Shown here: positions 15,042 through 29,930 of the stretch, one piece after another | Layout of the letters: each line of letters opens with the position of its first letter | Position numbering within the stretch: the stretch's first letter is position 1 | Translations under genes and position numbers: made by a program | From: a virus | Direction: 5' to 3' (one strand) | IMG/VR virus record: IMGVR_UViG_3300020172_002575 | Span: 1 to 54,276 of that record | Length of the DNA: 54,276 nucleotides | The notes under the pieces: generated by a model | Database searches by the model: none | The model's input: the letters and a program-made list of their open reading frames with translations, nothing else | Told to the model about the DNA's origin: nothing

Positions 15042-15620
15042 ATGCCAACAGATATAAAAGACGTATTAGAAAACACAAAAACCATATCCATGACAGATAG
15101 TGCAGTTAATACCCTCTTGGATTTTGAGCGTGTTGTTGACGAGCTGGATGTATATACTTTTGCTAATTGGAAAAAAGGCGAACTTGTTGTTGGACCAAAA
15201 TACGAAAAATATTTCGTAACTTGTACTTTTATGTGGCCACACAAACTAATGCCTGATCCACGAGGTGGGGAACGCCTATTAGATTATGGGTGTGAAATAA
15301 GATATAAAAAAGATCATCTACAATACCCAGTTAAAGTAAAAGATCCAGAAGATTTTAAACCTGGTACTAAAGTACCAAAAATGGCCAGAGTTCCTGTTTG
15401 GCTAGTAGAAATTGTTATGCCCAAGCAGTTGATGCAAGAAATTAATCAAGGTAGCGTGGAACTAGAAGCTGGCAAAGTCGATGCCGAAGACATTGAACAA
15501 AGCTACGAAGAAGGCTTAGACGATAACATGTACAAGACCGAAGCAGAAGCGCCTACATCGGCTAGTCAGGGCCAAGAAAATACACCACAAGGACAACAAA
15601 ATGGACCAGCACCTTATTAA
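15042..15620 (+). CDS. Conserved T4-like phage protein
   Basis: 192 residues. A mixed alpha/beta core (about 10-130) contains FANWKKGELVVGPKYEKYFV and MARVPVWLVEIVMPKQLM. It is followed by an acidic helix and a Gln/Pro-rich disordered tail (QGQENTPQGQQNGPAPY). The family is familiar from T4-like marine phages but has no function I can name. Its last 20 nt overlap the next gene, and the late-type box upstream suggests late expression. Confidence 0.6.
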   Translation: MPTDIKDVLENTKTISMTDSAVNTLLDFERVVDELDVYTFANWKKGELVVGPKYEKYFVTCTFMWPHKLMPDPRGGERLLDYGCEIRYKKDHLQYPVKVKDPEDFKPGTKVPKMARVPVWLVEIVMPKQLMQEINQGSVELEAGKVDAEDIEQSYEEGLDDNMYKTEAEAPTSASQGQENTPQGQQNGPAPY

Positions 15621-19726: not shown

Positions 19727-20593
19727 ATGACCCATTACGCAACCTTAGGTGTAGTCGAGAATGCTACCCAGGATGAAATTAAAAAGGCCTATCGCAAGTT
19801 GGCCATGCAACATCATCCTGACAAAGGTGGAGATACTAACAAGTTCCAAGAAATCCAATCAGCCTACGATACTATAGGCGATGAACAGAAACGAGCCCAA
19901 TACGATGCAGAACGTAGAGGCGGTGGTGTTAGATTTAATGTCAATGGCCAAGATTTTGGTGGCGGTATGCCACCGGGCATGGAAGATATGTTGCGTAATT
20001 TTGGATTTGCGTTTGGTCCTGGTTTTGCCGGACAAAATGGAGATCCGTTTGGGGCTTTTAGGCAACCAAGGCGTAATAAAGATATTCAAGTTGATATTGT
20101 GGTTCCGCTTTCAACTACACTAAGTGATCAACAAAAAACAATAAGCATACAAACAACAAACGGTGGTCGGCAAGCAGTTGATGTACGAATTCCACGGGGC
20201 GTAAGATCAAATACTACTATCAAATATCCCAATTTGGGCGACAACTTTTTTGAAAGTTTACCTAGAGGAGATTTATTTGTACGAGTACATGTTGAAAATG
20301 ATCCAAAGTTTCAGACTGAAAACTTAGATCTAATTTACTCTATAGATATAGATTGCATACGTGCAATAGTAGGTGATCAAATTACAGTAATTGGTATAGA
20401 TGGCAAACAATTTGAATTAACTATCCCTCCGGGCACTCAACCAGGTACTAAATTTAGAATAGCAAATCAAGGACTATATGCAATGAACCAAAATATTAGG
20501 GGTTCATTGCTGATATCTGTTAAAATAACTATACCAACTCATTTTACTGATGAGCAAAAACAAACTCTTAAAGATCTATTTTTCATTCACTAA
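19727..20593 (+). CDS. dnaJ: DnaJ-type (class B, CbpA-like) co-chaperone
   Basis: 288 residues. J domain at 1-65 with the HPD motif at H30-P31-D32 (AMQHHPDKGGDTNKFQEIQ), a G/F-rich linker (about 70-118), then two C-terminal beta domains (VDIVVPLSTTLSDQQKTISI, GDLFVRVHVENDP). There is no zinc-finger CxxCxGxG region, so it is the CbpA/DnaJB type. It would recruit host DnaK. It starts right after a sigma70-like promoter with no visible RBS and is followed two bases later by a ClpA-type gene, suggesting joint action in host protein turnover or virion protein folding. Confidence 0.9.
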   Translation: MTHYATLGVVENATQDEIKKAYRKLAMQHHPDKGGDTNKFQEIQSAYDTIGDEQKRAQYDAERRGGGVRFNVNGQDFGGGMPPGMEDMLRNFGFAFGPGFAGQNGDPFGAFRQPRRNKDIQVDIVVPLSTTLSDQQKTISIQTTNGGRQAVDVRIPRGVRSNTTIKYPNLGDNFFESLPRGDLFVRVHVENDPKFQTENLDLIYSIDIDCIRAIVGDQITVIGIDGKQFELTIPPGTQPGTKFRIANQGLYAMNQNIRGSLLISVKITIPTHFTDEQKQTLKDLFFIH

Positions 20594-20595
20594 AT

Positions 20596-22890
20596 ATGGA
20601 TATGCTACAGACCAATCCCGAAATTGATCATGTTATCGAAGAAGCAACACAGTTGGCCATCAAGTTAAGCCATGAATATGTAACGCTCGAACATGTATTT
20701 TTGTCAATGGTTAGATATGAACCATTTAAAGATTTACTTGTTAACTATGGCACAGATGTAGATGCCTTAGAAAATGATTTAGATGCATATCTTCTTTCTC
20801 AAATTGATTTGATTAGTGGCGAAGGAGACCCTAAAAAAACACATGCATTGGAACGTGTTTTTAATAGAGCGTTTACTCAAGTACTATTCAGCGCACGTAC
20901 TCACATAACTTTGATTGACTTGTTTTTAAGTATACATGCCGAAAACAACAGTTATGCACATTATTTTATGATCAAATATGGTCTTGAACGTGCTAAACTT
21001 GTTGAATTATATAATAAATCTTACAAGAATGATAGTAATAAAACCATTACAGATACATCCAGGGCAGATAAAGTACTAGAGCATTTTTGTACCAATCTTA
21101 ATAGGTTAGCTACAGAAGGAAAAATTGATCCTGTCATTGGTAGAAATTTTGAAACAAATGAAATCGTTGAAGTACTTGCACGTAGAAATAAAAATAATGT
21201 ATTGTTAATCGGCGACCCGGGAGTTGGTAAGACTGCTATTGCCGAAGGCCTAGCTTTGTCAATTACACTAAAAACTGTACCCGACTATTTGCATGACTAT
21301 ACTGTTTATAATCTTGACATTGGTACAATACTTGCAGGCAGCAAGTATAGAGGAGATTTTGAAGAAAAAATTCAAGAGATCATTACTGCACTGACAGTAA
21401 AAGGTAAAGCAATATTGTTTATTGACGAGGCACATCAGATGCGTGGAGCCGGATCTGGAAGTCAGAGTGGTCCGGACTTTAGCAACATGATCAAACCAGC
21501 CTTGGCCAAAGGACGTATCAAAGTAATTGCCAGTACAACCTGGGAAGAGTATACACAGACCTTTGAGAAAGATCGTGCTCTAATGCGCCGATTCCAACGT
21601 ATTACTGTTGATGAGCCAAGTCCTGCTGTGGCCAAAGATATTCTACACGGATTGCGATCTCACTTTGAAAAATTCCATAATGGAACAATAACTGATGGTG
21701 CAATTGAAGCCGCAGTTGACCTTAGTGTACGATACCAAACTGATAAAAAACTTCCTGACAAAGCTATTGATTTAATTGACATTTGCTGTGCTAGACACAA
21801 AATTAATTCCGCCGACTGGACAATTGTGCGAAATGATATTGTCAGTGCAATTAGCAAAATGACTAAAATTCCTGTAGAACAAATTGGTACAACAGAAAAT
21901 TCCAAAGGAATAGAAAATTTAGAAACAAAAATAAAAGACAAACTGTTTGGACAGGATCAAGCAATCGAATCTGTTCTGGAAAAAATCTATGTCAGCAGAG
22001 CAGGGTTAAAAGCAATTAACAAACCAGTTGGCAACTTCTTGTTCCTGGGTCCAACTGGTACTGGTAAAACAGAACTGGCTAAATTACTGGCAGAAAATCT
22101 TGGCATGAAGCTGATGCGGTATGACATGAGCGAATATCAGGAGCGACATGCTGTAGCAAAACTGATTGGTGCTCCACCCGGCTATGTAGGCTATGATGAT
22201 GGTAATCTTGGCGGCGGATTGTTAATTAGTGATATTGAAAAAAATCCCAACTCAATTATATTAATGGATGAAATTGAAAAAGCACATCCTGACGTGAGTA
22301 ATATTTTATTGCAGATGATGGATGAAGGTACTATTACATCATCTAATGGTAAAAAAGCAGATTGCAGAAACTCTATAATTGTGTTAACATCTAACCTAGG
22401 CGCAGCAGACAATGAAAAACACACTATTGGTTTTACCACTGCATTAGAAAAAAGCGGCGAAGATGACAAAGCAGTCAAAGACTTCTTTAAACCAGAATTT
22501 AGAAATAGACTAGATGGTGTTGTTAAGTTTAACAAGCTTGATCAATTGAGTATGAGAAAAATTGTTAACAAATTTGTTAGCGACCTCAATGATCTGTTGC
22601 AGGATAAACAGCTACGAGTCAGACTGACAGAAAAAGCAGTCGATGAACTGGTAGTAAATGGATTTGATACTAAAATGGGCGCAAGACCGCTACAAAGAAA
22701 AATCAACGATGTCATAAAAGTTCCATTGAGTAAAAAAATATTGTTTGAAAATATAGCATCAGGAACAACTATAATTGTAGATTTTGCCAATAAAGAATTT
22801 GTTTTTCAACCGGTAGAAACCTCAAACCTTCAACATAGAATAGACGAAAATGGATACATTGTTCTGGAAGAACCTATCTCCGAATATTGA
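20596..22890 (+). CDS. clpA: ClpA-type AAA+ unfoldase
   Basis: 764 residues, close to E. coli ClpA (758). Clp N domain at about 1-145. First AAA module: Walker A GDPGVGKT (206-213), Walker B D277-E278. Second module: Walker A GPTGTGKT (485-492), Walker B D558-E559, sensor region FKPEFRNRLDGVV and C-terminal MGARPLQRKIND. There is no ClpB-type middle coiled coil between the modules. An IGF tripeptide (611-613) stands where ClpA has its IGL ClpP-docking loop, so binding to host ClpP is plausible. No ClpP or ClpS is in the window. Operon with dnaJ. Confidence 0.9.
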   Translation: MDMLQTNPEIDHVIEEATQLAIKLSHEYVTLEHVFLSMVRYEPFKDLLVNYGTDVDALENDLDAYLLSQIDLISGEGDPKKTHALERVFNRAFTQVLFSARTHITLIDLFLSIHAENNSYAHYFMIKYGLERAKLVELYNKSYKNDSNKTITDTSRADKVLEHFCTNLNRLATEGKIDPVIGRNFETNEIVEVLARRNKNNVLLIGDPGVGKTAIAEGLALSITLKTVPDYLHDYTVYNLDIGTILAGSKYRGDFEEKIQEIITALTVKGKAILFIDEAHQMRGAGSGSQSGPDFSNMIKPALAKGRIKVIASTTWEEYTQTFEKDRALMRRFQRITVDEPSPAVAKDILHGLRSHFEKFHNGTITDGAIEAAVDLSVRYQTDKKLPDKAIDLIDICCARHKINSADWTIVRNDIVSAISKMTKIPVEQIGTTENSKGIENLETKIKDKLFGQDQAIESVLEKIYVSRAGLKAINKPVGNFLFLGPTGTGKTELAKLLAENLGMKLMRYDMSEYQERHAVAKLIGAPPGYVGYDDGNLGGGLLISDIEKNPNSIILMDEIEKAHPDVSNILLQMMDEGTITSSNGKKADCRNSIIVLTSNLGAADNEKHTIGFTTALEKSGEDDKAVKDFFKPEFRNRLDGVVKFNKLDQLSMRKIVNKFVSDLNDLLQDKQLRVRLTEKAVDELVVNGFDTKMGARPLQRKINDVIKVPLSKKILFENIASGTTIIVDFANKEFVFQPVETSNLQHRIDENGYIVLEEPISEY

Positions 22891-25224: not shown

Positions 25225-25231
25225 CTAAATA
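25225..25231 (+). promoter_or_regulatory. Candidate late promoter box (CTAAATA)
   Basis: CTAAATA ends 21 nt before ATG 25253, immediately after the previous stop codon. Confidence 0.5.
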
Positions 25232-25252: not shown

Positions 25253-26158
25253 ATGTTTATTGCTGATTTATTTGAAAGTTATGTAGCAGAAGCCGGCCCG
25301 CAGTTGGTTGTACTATACCCGGGTCGGTTTCAGCCTTTTCATTTAGGGCACAGAGAAGTATTCCAAAGCCTACAAAGCAAGTTTGGGCGCGATAGTGTCT
25401 ATATTGCAACTAGCAATAAAACCGAACTTCCAAAAAGTCCTTTTAATTTCAGCGACAAATCAGTACTCATGCATGCAGCTGGTATACCCAGTGATCGCAT
25501 AATTGAAGTTACTAATCCTTATAAACTCCCTGAACCTCAGTTTAATCCCGCCAATACTATTTTTATAGCGGCAGTAGGTGCACCTGATAGAGATAGGCTG
25601 CGCCCTGACAGTGTTAAAAAAGATGGTACTCCGGGGTATTTTAAATCATTCGAAAGCTTGGATAAATGTGCCACGGCCGACAAGCATGGTTATGTGATTA
25701 TAGCTGACGAGAGACAAAAAGTAATTACAATAAATGGTCAGCAAATAGATGTAAGTCATGGAACTCCATCAAGAGCAGCATGGAACGCGGTAAGAGACAA
25801 CCCTCAAGGTAGATCAGAATATCTACTACAAATGTACGGTAGAGATGATTCTGAATTGGGCCGTATACTTGATAAAATTCCACAAACTGTCAATGAGGAA
25901 GCAGCCGGAGTTGGCGTAGTTAAAAACAGCAAGGATCCACGTTATGTCATGGCCACAATGGGCAACGACAACGATGTAAATGCTGCTACACTTCCTAAGA
26001 TGATGGCCGGATTTCATTTAACAAAAAAATATAAAAAACTTAAAGAAGAAATGGATGTTTTAAAAGAAAAATGGTCAGCAAAATATAAACGTAGTATCAA
26101 CTGTAATAGTCCCAAAGGATTCAGTCAGAAAGCGCATTGTCAAGGTAGGAAAAAATAA
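25253..26158 (+). CDS. Nucleotidyltransferase with capsid-targeting-like N terminus
   Basis: 301 residues. The N terminus MFIADLFESYVAEAGP resembles T4 capsid-targeting sequences (Alt begins MELITELFDE), with VAE/A at 13/14 like a prohead-protease site. The enzyme core follows at once: LVVLYPGRFQPFHLGH (19-33, HxGH), and HGTPSR corresponds to the late SxTxxR motif of NMN/pantetheine-phosphate adenylyltransferases. The C-terminal tail SAKYKRSINCNSPKGFSQKA with a second Cys is basic and separate from the enzyme. Cleavage would leave the catalytic domain intact, suggesting a packaged, injected enzyme that makes NAD or modifies host molecules. Late-type promoter upstream; TAATG overlap with the next gene. 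Confidence 0.75.
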   Translation: MFIADLFESYVAEAGPQLVVLYPGRFQPFHLGHREVFQSLQSKFGRDSVYIATSNKTELPKSPFNFSDKSVLMHAAGIPSDRIIEVTNPYKLPEPQFNPANTIFIAAVGAPDRDRLRPDSVKKDGTPGYFKSFESLDKCATADKHGYVIIADERQKVITINGQQIDVSHGTPSRAAWNAVRDNPQGRSEYLLQMYGRDDSELGRILDKIPQTVNEEAAGVGVVKNSKDPRYVMATMGNDNDVNAATLPKMMAGFHLTKKYKKLKEEMDVLKEKWSAKYKRSINCNSPKGFSQKAHCQGRKK

Positions 26159-26466
26159 TGTTTCACAGGCAATTACGCTTTGATGTACATTGTCATTGGA
26201 GCGGCGAACCACCTGTGTATAGAATATATGTAGACGATGACTTAATTACCGAACGCACTTTTGGATACGCAGGTTATGACTATTTTATACAAGAAAATGT
26301 AGTGTGCGATTTAGCACCAGGTGTTCATTGTGTTAGACTTGAAAATTGTTCTGATAGTGGTAATTTTCAATTGCTTAAATTAAGAGTAAACAATCAAGAA
26401 ATGCCCAAACAACCAGGCAAAGACGGCTACGACAACAAACAGTGGACCTTTGCTTGCAACTACTAA
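26158..26466 (+). CDS. Small beta-sandwich protein
   Basis: 102 residues, mostly strands: LRFDVHCHWSGEPPVYRIYV, LITERTFGYAGYDYFIQENV, GVHCVRLENCSDSGNFQLL, then KDGYDNKQWTFACNY. The layout resembles a carbohydrate-binding module without the final loop, similar to the gene at 24741. Four cysteines could pair if exported or in the virion. TAATG overlap with the nucleotidyltransferase gene suggests the same late transcript. Confidence 0.5.
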   Translation: MFHRQLRFDVHCHWSGEPPVYRIYVDDDLITERTFGYAGYDYFIQENVVCDLAPGVHCVRLENCSDSGNFQLLKLRVNNQEMPKQPGKDGYDNKQWTFACNY

Positions 26467-26491: not shown

Positions 26492-27301
26492 ATGAAAACA
26501 ACAGAATTTGTAGTAGAAAACAGTATTATTGCTCAAGAAGCAGATGACATGCATCGTGATCACGAAGTACAAATGGCACGTAGTCAAATGTACAGCGCAG
26601 CACAAGCAGCAATTGAGATCCATCGCTTGTTAAGAGATATCAGCGAGATGGAAGGTCTTGAAGGTTGGGTACAAAGTAAACTAACTCTTGCTAGCCAATA
26701 CTTGGAAAGCGTTAGAGATTACATGAAGTACGAAGATGTCAGTCAAGACACAGAATTGATGCCATTTGCTGAAGGTGCCGCCAATTATGCACTAGACAAA
26801 TTATTAGTCGAAAAGGCAAATAAAAAAATGAAAGAGGCCACTACTGGTCCAACCATTGGCGGCGTTTCACAAACCACAAACGACGACGGTACAACTACCA
26901 CAAATTATAATCAAGGTCCAATGAGTGCGTCAAGTACTAATCGTCCCACTGGCACTGTAAAAACTGCTGCATATGATTTGGGACCTGCGGGTTCAGTTAG
27001 TACTACCACAGGCCCTATGCTTGGTGGAGCACAAGGCAAAGGGAACCAAGTATCAAGCATCACAAATGCACAAGGAAAAACAACAAGCATTGTTGGTAAA
27101 CCCGGTGCACAAGACATCAATCAAGCATTAAATGAAAAAAATAAAAAATTAAAAGAGACGGCCAGTGCTGGTGCAAGTGGTGCCAGTGGTATTGCAACAA
27201 GTGTAGCTGGTCCTGCTAGCAAGCCTGGTACAGGTAAGCCTAAGACTATTGCCAACGCACACAAACCAAAAAAAGTTAGTGTAGGTAAAGGCGTTTACTA
27301 A
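26492..27301 (+). CDS. Putative internal virion protein with capsid-targeting-like start
   Basis: 269 residues. The N terminus MKTTEFVVENSIIAQEADDM resembles T4 internal protein leaders (MKTYQEFIAEA). Residues about 20-110 are helical; FAEGAANYALDKLLVEKANK contains an FAE/G site at 94/95 like prohead-protease sites. The rest (about 115-269) is low complexity, Gly/Thr/Ser/Ala-rich with a basic end (KPKTIANAHKPKKVSVGKGV). Likely packaged in the head; no enzyme domain is visible. Confidence 0.55.
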   Translation: MKTTEFVVENSIIAQEADDMHRDHEVQMARSQMYSAAQAAIEIHRLLRDISEMEGLEGWVQSKLTLASQYLESVRDYMKYEDVSQDTELMPFAEGAANYALDKLLVEKANKKMKEATTGPTIGGVSQTTNDDGTTTTNYNQGPMSASSTNRPTGTVKTAAYDLGPAGSVSTTTGPMLGGAQGKGNQVSSITNAQGKTTSIVGKPGAQDINQALNEKNKKLKETASAGASGASGIATSVAGPASKPGTGKPKTIANAHKPKKVSVGKGVY

Positions 27302-28079: not shown

Positions 28080-29930
28080 ATGTTTATAAACGATATTTTT
28101 AACGATAACAACAAAAAATTAGACGAAGTCAGCAACGAATTGCTAGGTCGTTATAAAAAAGCCGCAGGTGCAGATGCAAGTGCAGCCGACAAGCGTGGCG
28201 ATGTTGAACAAGGTAATAAGAGATTCAAAGGCATTGTTAATGCCACTAAAAAAGAACTAGACAACGATGTCAAGCGTCATAAAAAATCACCCGTAGAAGA
28301 AAATGACCTTACTGTTCCTAAAGGGTGGGAAGCAAAAACTCAAGCAGATGGCAGTACACGCATATCCAAACAAGGTAGTATGTCCAGTGCCGATTATAAA
28401 CAGAACATAGCAGACTATAAAGCCAAGAACTGGACTCCAGAAAAAATAGCCGATTATTCTCAAAGAATGGCATCTGGTCAAGGATACACAGATGCAGAAA
28501 GATCTGCAAACTATCAACAACAACAAAAATCTTTTGGGCAGTATGCCGATACACCGTTAGACGAAGCAGAACCAACACATAATCAGCCGCGCACAGGTCT
28601 TTCTGCCGAACAAAGAGAACAGCTACGCAAAGATATAGATGCAGTTGATTACAATAAACAACAGCAGCCTCCTGCAGCTCCTTCCCGTGAACAAAAAGCA
28701 GACATACGCAAAGCCGTCAAAGCACAAGAAGTTAAAGAGCAAGGTGTGGCGGAAGGCTTGCCACAGACTCTACGCAAGGTTGTTCCAGGATATGCCAAGC
28801 GTGAAATTGATAAAAAGATGGATGCTGAAAAATTTGGTAGGACCGATGTAGATAGAGATGCTAATTACTATCGCTATAAAAAGATTCAAGACAAGATCAA
28901 AGAGCAAGGCATGGCGGAAGGCGGCTTTGATATTCCTGAAATTCCCAGAGCGCCACAACCAAGACCAGAACCCAAGAACAAAGCAGTAGGCGAAGGCTCA
29001 GTACAAGACAAACTACACCGGCGTCATCAAGAACTACGCAAGAAGTCGGGACTACCTGATCCCAACTACTACCAAGAGTTAAAAGCCACATACGATCTTC
29101 CTGATGAAGAAAGATACGCCAAGGCGGCTGAACTTAAAAAGAAATATCAAGTGAAAGAAGCACGCAAGGCTGAGGCCAATTTTGATGTGGAGGATCTAAA
29201 GCGTTTAGAACAAATTCGTGATTTACCTACACTTAAAGCACAGGCCATGGCATTGATCAGCAAACCAAGCGAAAGACCCATGAAGCCAGAAAAAGTTGCC
29301 TGGTTCGATGCTGCATTAGATCGCATGGACAACAGAATGGCCATTATCAAGCTCATGTATGATTTGTTATTAAGCGGCGAAGGACATCAAGTAATTGGTA
29401 GTAAGCGTAGCATGAATCCCAACAGCTACCGTAGCAGATTTGGTGAATCAACTATTACCAACGAAGACGTAGAACGATACGTAGAAGAACTAGAACGTGC
29501 TGGATATAAAATTCTTGAAGAAAAAACTAGATTAGATCCCAGCTGCTGGAAGGGTTATCGTAAGGCCGGCACTAAAATGAAAGGTGGTGTTCGAGTTAAT
29601 AACTGTGTGCCAGTCAAAAAAAAAGTAGATGAGTACGGCGCAGCAAACGGTCCTCCTAATCTAAACAAGTCTGATATCAAGCGCATGATGCCACCTGAGC
29701 CAGTAGCCGAACAAATTCCCACAATCACCGATACTGGGCCAAGAGAACAACCACACCCAGCAGCACAAACTTTAGATCTAGTACGAGGCTTAAAAAGATT
29801 GGCTGGCATTGACAAGTACGATGTTGAAAATGCAGTCAATCAAGAAATAACAAACGTTGTTCGTTCTCCACAAGATGCAAGCAGCAAAAACGTCAGTATT
29901 ATAAATCGTTTGTTTGGACCAAGGCAATAA
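28080..29930 (+). CDS. Modular putative internal virion protein with AEG repeats
   Basis: 616 residues, highly charged. The leader-like start MFINDIFNDNNKKLDEVSNE parallels the nucleotidyltransferase start. Three repeats KEQGVAEG (E225/G226), KEQGMAEG (E280/G281) and KAVGEG (E305/G306) separate short unrelated modules; each has a hydrophobic-Ala/Gly-Glu/Gly pattern like prohead protease sites. A later block DPSCWKGYRKAGTKMKGGVR with a second Cys is a basic Cys-pair motif. The C-terminal part contains AAQTLDLVRGLKRLAGI. Likely disordered modules packaged with DNA, perhaps processed into peptides. Confidence 0.55.
   Translation: MFINDIFNDNNKKLDEVSNELLGRYKKAAGADASAADKRGDVEQGNKRFKGIVNATKKELDNDVKRHKKSPVEENDLTVPKGWEAKTQADGSTRISKQGSMSSADYKQNIADYKAKNWTPEKIADYSQRMASGQGYTDAERSANYQQQQKSFGQYADTPLDEAEPTHNQPRTGLSAEQREQLRKDIDAVDYNKQQQPPAAPSREQKADIRKAVKAQEVKEQGVAEGLPQTLRKVVPGYAKREIDKKMDAEKFGRTDVDRDANYYRYKKIQDKIKEQGMAEGGFDIPEIPRAPQPRPEPKNKAVGEGSVQDKLHRRHQELRKKSGLPDPNYYQELKATYDLPDEERYAKAAELKKKYQVKEARKAEANFDVEDLKRLEQIRDLPTLKAQAMALISKPSERPMKPEKVAWFDAALDRMDNRMAIIKLMYDLLLSGEGHQVIGSKRSMNPNSYRSRFGESTITNEDVERYVEELERAGYKILEEKTRLDPSCWKGYRKAGTKMKGGVRVNNCVPVKKKVDEYGAANGPPNLNKSDIKRMMPPEPVAEQIPTITDTGPREQPHPAAQTLDLVRGLKRLAGIDKYDVENAVNQEITNVVRSPQDASSKNVSIINRLFGPRQ
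28734..28922 (+). repeat. In-frame direct repeat encoding KEQG(V/M)AEG
   Basis: Two 24-nt copies at 28734-28757 and 28899-28922 match at 22 of 24 bases and are exactly 165 nt (55 codons) apart, so frame is kept. A degenerate third copy lies near 28980-28997. The conserved bases are more than protein constraint alone would need at some third positions, suggesting duplication or recombination. Confidence 0.7.

Follow-up and report, generated by a model that had tools for sequence, protein, structure and literature searches.

A leader-tagged HxGH nucleotidyltransferase behind a late-type promoter, a probable packaged and ejected enzyme of a freshwater phage

In phage T4, capsid-targeting leaders are propeptides of 10 to 19 residues with conserved targeting and processing positions; in the internal protein IPIII, positions 4 and 7 are important for targeting and positions 8 and 10 for processing, and the prohead protease gp21 cleaves after L/I-x-E (PMC9026906). 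The T4 records give MKTYQEFIAEA as the start of IPII and IPIII and MELITELFDE as that of Alt, in agreement with the comparators cited in an earlier, sequence-only reading of the locus described here; the duplicate alt.-1 starts MELITELFDG. Cyanophage virions contain nucleotidyltransferases: a putative citidylyltransferase (T4-GC190) was detected by mass spectrometry in S-SM1 (PMC3037559), an enzyme of the same type in S-SZBM1 (PMC9146016), an NMNAT in S-SCSM1 (PMC9602691) and a nucleotidyltransferase in S-CREM2 (PMC10665884), and a passage of the S-SCSM1 paper on the virion NMNAT cites S-CBWM1 alongside (PMC9602691). The idea that such enzymes enter the host and act on NAD is already published for cyanophages, as is the authors' caution that virion enzymes could be carry-over or contamination (PMC9602691, PMC10665884). 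Neither virion nucleotidyltransferases nor capsid-targeting sequences are novel in themselves; the connection between leader and nucleotidyltransferase, a MFIADLFE leader class that also serves the head operon, and a putative cut-site repeat appear to be new.

The window analyzed here, the whole 54,276-nucleotide stretch of an IMG/VR virus record, comes from a virus that infects freshwater bacteria; its polymerase is most similar to those of the jumbo phages Phosso (51% identity) and Atu_ph07 (47%). One of its ORFs (Table 1) begins with a T4-like leader, as the sequence-only reading had noticed; the ORF start was confirmed, and since no further in-frame ATG occurs before about residue 73, any translation of the gene would include the leader. 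Residues 7-14 (FESYVAEA) resemble T4 YQEFIAEA, and when the cut sites are aligned, F7, Y10, V11 and E13 occupy functional positions 4, 7, 8 and 10 of IPIII, giving a putative propeptide with the length and the conserved targeting and processing positions of a T4 capsid-targeting sequence. The VAE/A site lies three residues ahead of a predicted strand (17-23), consistent with its earlier placement just before the first strand. All 14 orthologues have L6, F7, E8, Y10 and E13, with V, I or L at residue 11; P3 is V in the focal protein and in 7 of the 14, as against the L/I-x-E known from T4. Candidate cut tripeptides are V-A-E (ending at residue 13) and, as a second possible site, L6-F7-E8 in the focal leader, with I-A-E, I-T-E, L-D-E and V-A-E in the orthologues. 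The core [FYWLM]..[FYW][ILVM].E[AGSTND] is rare: ten related contigs give a frequency of 1.3e-4 per internal position, which corresponds to about 0.002 for the first 24 residues of one ORF. Distant family members keep MFIxDLFE, with its LFE, but not the VAE site, so either L-F-E/x is the older cut or the leader helix alone is what they share; the patterns searched for included the leader, through which several distant members were retrieved, so its invariance among them comes partly from this selection.

Table 1. Features of the focal gene and its surroundings, in window coordinates
Feature	Position	Strand	Remarks
T4-late-type promoter element CTAAATA	25225..25231	+	28 nt upstream of the focal ATG
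Leader-tagged HxGH nucleotidyltransferase ORF	25253..26158	+	301 aa, ATG start, begins MFIADLFESYVAEAGPQLVVLYPGRFQPFHLGH
Capsid-targeting-like leader, residues 1-13, MFIADLFESYVAE	25253..25291	+	candidate cuts after E13 and E8
Nucleotidyltransferase domain, residues 17-210	25301..25882	+	high-confidence AlphaFold2 prediction, Pfam, fold matches
Catalytic motif HLGH, residues 30-33	25340..25351	+	H30, G32 and H33 unchanged in all 19 relatives
Second nucleotide-binding motif SHGTPSR, residues 168-174	25754..25774	+	R174 invariant in 19 relatives
C-terminal module ...KWSAKYKRSINCNSPKGFSQKAHCQGRKK	26057..26155	+	common to otherwise unrelated cyanophage proteins
Neighbor with second leader type, MKTTEFVVE/N	26492..27301	+	late element at 26463
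Neighbor with leader MFINDIF and internal QGVAEG and QGMAEG	28080..29930	+	
In-frame DNA repeat encoding QGVAE/G	28740..28757	+	
Repeat variant encoding QGMAE/G	28905..28922	+	

Behind the leader, Pfam CTP_transf_like (PF01467) matches residues 21-87 (E 2e-6; 28.5 bits against a cut-off of 21), and the HxGH motif, the second nucleotide-binding motif and a Rossmann-like fold place the protein in this superfamily. AlphaFold2, supplied with 19 relatives, models the enzyme domain confidently, with the helix at 3-13 poorly fixed, a disordered linker at 211-252 and then a C-terminal part. The invariance of H30, G32, H33 and R174 suggests that the focal enzyme should be active. The C-terminal module is 57-79% identical to otherwise unrelated cyanophage proteins over residues 262-301, ends an S-SM2 protein of 142 residues that starts MKTLKQFLKE/T, and recurs in loci L005, L044 and L357 and in another leader protein. 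As a separate observation, this module (SINCNSPKGFSQKAHCQGRKK) is a mobile Cys/His-containing tail on unrelated phage proteins, sometimes straight behind a leader, as in L357 (MRITEFINE/GWSQKYKSSINC).

Judged from its promoter-like element, the focal gene would be expressed late. The CTAAATA element stands in the same place upstream of 14 orthologues, one of which (L010) has GTAAATA, and T4 gp20, gp22, gp24 and alt have the same late-element arrangement upstream. Seven window ORFs, including the virion-protein-like one at 15042 and the neighbor at 26492, have [CA]TAAATA 25-31 nt upstream; no late-type element was found upstream of the window's gp44 or polymerase. In ten contigs its distance from the ATG peaks at 25-34 nt upstream, and MFIxDLFE-type leaders are commoner where it is present (7 of 162) than elsewhere (8 of 1544; p 2e-4).

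The same leader also precedes unrelated cargo. Scanning 2.9 million viral contigs for MFIxDLFE yielded 62 stretches, a few plainly not ORF starts, against a chance expectation of fewer than about ten by our own informal estimate. Bearers of at least 70 residues form nine groups with mutually unrelated bodies, as for a modular leader. The commonest bearer is a protein of 74-91 residues (25 loci). Another 18 bearers are nucleotidyltransferases and a single one is an ART-PolyVal protein (PF18760, E 3.6e-18) that recalls the theme of T4 Alt; the rest are hypothetical proteins. In the head clusters of six related contigs, ordered gp20, leader-type protein, gp67-like, gp21, gp22 and gp23, the short protein lies between the portal gp20 and the gp67-like acidic core protein; the head-assembly operon thus itself makes use of the leader. 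Leaders in these clusters vary between MFIVDLFE and MIISELFD, the second of which is close to T4 Alt, and the capsid protein has an LxE site near its N terminus. Our leader score singled out 16 N termini against 3 internal methionines in seven contigs, a comparison that is not independent of these leaders, on which the score was tuned. A gp21-type prohead protease was found in six more distant leader-bearing contigs; by Pfam and phmmer, gp21, gp23 and gp20 were not recognizable in the window or its closest relatives (42-157 kb), which we take to be fragments, given a polymerase that suggests jumbo phages of 350-490 kb.

Because the commonest bearer is a head-operon protein and the leader alone says only prohead core, the focal protein could instead be packaged and cut yet serve as a head or assembly component, or be retained in the empty capsid, rather than act as an injected effector. 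We consider this unlikely: the catalytic residues are invariant in the 19 relatives, as for a working enzyme, and ejection is known for the T4 internal proteins and Alt, whose leaders are of this kind (PMC9026906). By analogy with those T4 proteins, injection of the focal enzyme with the DNA is probable. The likeness to IPII, IPIII and Alt extends to a short leader ending E/A, an aromatic-x-x-aromatic-aliphatic-x-Glu core, apparent late expression and varied cargo behind one leader. The focal case differs in that its cargo is an HxGH nucleotidyltransferase, its leader starts MFIADL, six residues before the T4-like core, half of the orthologues have V at P3, and no protease was recognized in the window.

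The cyanophage virion enzymes (T4-GC190, phrog_395) share with the focal protein the superfamily, a T4-type leader and a late promoter; the virion detections are those of the cyanophages. In contrast, they have GRFNPPxxGH where the focal protein has GRFQPFHLGH, they belong to another leader class with another C terminus, tblastn gives no alignment, and the focal phage is a freshwater one, with jumbo phages nearest by polymerase. The N termini in the records are T4-type in 4 of 4 virion nucleotidyltransferases: MKKFSAFLNE/A in S-SM1, MRFRQFIIE/A in S-SZBM1, MKSFLQFLKE/A in S-SCSM1 and MKNFSSFLTE/A in S-CREM2. Eighty IMG/VR relatives of the S-SM2 protein start MKSFFQFL[SNTGK]E/A or close variants, nearly all with TAAATA upstream. 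In S-CREM2, the motif [FYWLM]..[FYW][ILVMF].E within residues 1-32 marks 6 of 27 extra virion proteins vs 3 of 160 undetected ORFs (Fisher p 3e-4, an exploratory and optimistic value, as the motif was built on T4 positions and chosen after the result of a narrower one) and 1 of 23 tail or structural proteins; virion extras were not enriched in the narrow motif, [LI].E[AGSTND] (3 of 26, as against 13 of 154; p 0.42). The six bearers are a SAM hydrolase (MKDFDSFLEE), a kinase (MKRFDAFLTE), a Cas9-like protein (...FASFMAE/A), the nucleotidyltransferase, gp13 (MKDLHSFLTE) and gp136 (MQTFSMFFSE). Loci L306-L308 comprise S-CREM2 gp6, gp12, gp13, gp14, gp136 and gp154, and the virion SAM hydrolase, Cas9-like nuclease, kinase and nucleotidyltransferase all have a T4-type leader. 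The S-CREM2 authors do not mention a targeting sequence (PMC10665884), and the literature searched contained no earlier report of capsid targeting in connection with cyanophage.

These data also bear on the possibility that the focal protein is a metabolic enzyme that works in the infected cell and is expressed late, its leader a chance N-terminal extension and the virion detections in relatives contamination. The cyanophage virion matches do rest on 2-3 peptides in two studies, and leaderless metabolic nucleotidyltransferases occur in other phages (Atu_ph07 MSTKYLKGQNMDIVIGSGRFNPPTDGH). We nevertheless regard this as very unlikely, since four independent virion studies found nucleotidyltransferases that each have a T4-type leader, the leader motif is enriched among the S-CREM2 virion extras, and MFIxDLFE is also found on unrelated cargo. 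Packaging and processing of the focal enzyme are likely, and the original suggestion of capsid packaging is now well supported by leader anatomy, the late promoter, modular reuse and virion proteomics in relatives that have the same type of leader, which is stronger evidence than was available to that suggestion.

We propose, with good confidence, that the focal gene encodes an internal head protein, expressed late, whose leader is cut by the prohead protease and whose enzyme is ejected with the DNA, with an NMNAT-like action. Leader residues 1-13 would bind the growing prohead core; the prohead protease would then cleave after Glu (E13/A14, perhaps E8/S9), leaving an active HxGH nucleotidyltransferase free inside the head. 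The enzyme would leave with the DNA and act at once in the new host, most likely through an NMN/NaMN adenylyltransferase-like activity that maintains or rebuilds NAD.

This choice of activity reflects the best sequence neighbors, the archaeal NadM-type NMN adenylyltransferases (TIGR01527, E 7e-7, residues 21-105; PDB 1f9a, E 0.0014), with which the focal protein shares the GRFQPFHxGH motif and a Rossmann-like core. Unlike NadM, it has no Nudix domain, contains a family-specific insertion and scores 28.9 bits against the TIGR01527 equivalog cut-off of 181.2. An assignment as NMNAT proper was rejected, the scores being far below the curated family cut-offs; we therefore call the protein NMNAT-like only. 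The earlier proposal of a role in NAD metabolism thus holds as regards the nearest families, which are NadM-type, but not to the point of reaching any curated cut-off; for the other suggested role, nucleotidylation of host targets, the analysis gave neither support nor counter-evidence. The phrog_395 profile matches residues 19-76 only (E 3e-9), phrog_3041 also matches, a fold search of a viral library returned phage cytidyltransferase-like proteins, and NadV is present in 2 of 19 contigs, all of them fragments. A PDB fold search was rejected as a guide to substrate, its matches being weak and mixed.

The enzyme might also be packaged and injected yet act on another substrate, as a pyridine nucleotide variant, by cytidylyl transfer, or in RNA or protein modification. 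This is a serious if lesser possibility, in keeping with the conserved, apparently family-specific stretch at about 108-147 (DRDRLRPDSVKKDGTPGYF...HGY), for which no NadM counterpart was noted, and with PDB fold matches that include CTP:phosphocholine cytidylyltransferase beside NaMN adenylyltransferases, all with weak scores. The combination of GRFQPFHxGH with the S-GT-R motif, however, is most like NadM, and among the candidate substrates an NMNAT-like activity appears to fit the focal enzyme best.

Downstream genes also have leader-type starts, which sets the focal gene within a cluster of probable head-cargo genes. Close relatives of the neighbor at 26492 start MKPTEFIVE/T, MKPAEFIVE/N or MKTTEFIVE/N, and the one in contig G004 starts MKSYDFLTE/G, nearly a T4 leader. 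Several further features were seen in these genomes. A DnaJ-like gene followed by a ClpA/B-like ATPase (19727-22890) is kept beside the focal cluster in relatives G001-G004, and a second mobile Cys motif, CWKGYRKAGTKMKGGVRVNNCVP, occurs in the leader-bearing proteins of 28080-29930, L052 and L066. The 457-kb contig G009 (L313-L321), a jumbo phage, has 11 ART-PolyVal matches; several of these ORFs start MR[IYNL]..[DE]I, possibly a third leader class, and one adjoins the major capsid gene. Another possible leader cargo is a P-loop-kinase-like protein in G010 (95190-95900) starting MFISELFTPTLAE/G.

QGVAEG and QGMAEG occur inside relatives of the focal protein and its neighbors, where G[VMI]AE[GADN] has 27 matches vs 3 in reversed proteins; the string GVAEG had no earlier report in the literature searched. 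The 18-nt copies are nearly identical in DNA (CARGGTGTGGCGGAAGGC). Scans with the CAG form gave 35 stretches, some in GC-rich, unrelated phages that look like chance, and with the CAA form at least 120. With the CAA form, the longest ORF reads 160 of 162 copies in the QGVAEG frame, and flanking conservation ends within one or two bases. Proteins hold one to seven copies, with seven in L338 and L356 (also seen: L329, L335, L361-L440). A leader-type site in the first 22 residues is found in 34 of 54 repeat-bearing proteins, compared with 153 of 777 among the remaining ORFs in these loci (p 4e-11, inflated by relatedness, as the proteins were de-duplicated by their first 24 residues only; control region p 0.3). 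We tentatively suggest, as an idea that may well prove wrong, that T4-like phages of the wider group assemble an injected payload from a kit of leader, enzyme modules and 18-nt cassette, in which the repeat would be a prohead-protease cut splitting polyproteins into effectors in the head and perhaps also, because its copies are nearly identical in DNA, a crossover point for module shuffling.

Leader-tagged polyproteins (L044:5633-8341, L082:1-1332) combine the nucleotidyltransferase either with a cytidine-deaminase-like domain plus a HELVH metallopeptidase-like stretch or with an ART-like stretch. Such fusions to deaminase-, metallopeptidase- or ART-like parts resemble the polyvalent proteins (PMC5512222) as virion-linked multi-enzyme cargo; the focal protein, in contrast, is a single enzyme domain, and the relevant part of PMC5512222 lists the Pol-beta type, not the HxGH type.

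In the cyanophage papers, virions contained nucleotidyltransferases, kinases and SAM hydrolases, with cargo and contamination undistinguished. If a T4-type leader marks such enzymes, packaged effectors could be recognized in the sequences of T4-like phages at large, even where a phage has been met in metagenomes alone, and early control of host NAD or SAM would be tied to virion-delivered enzymes.
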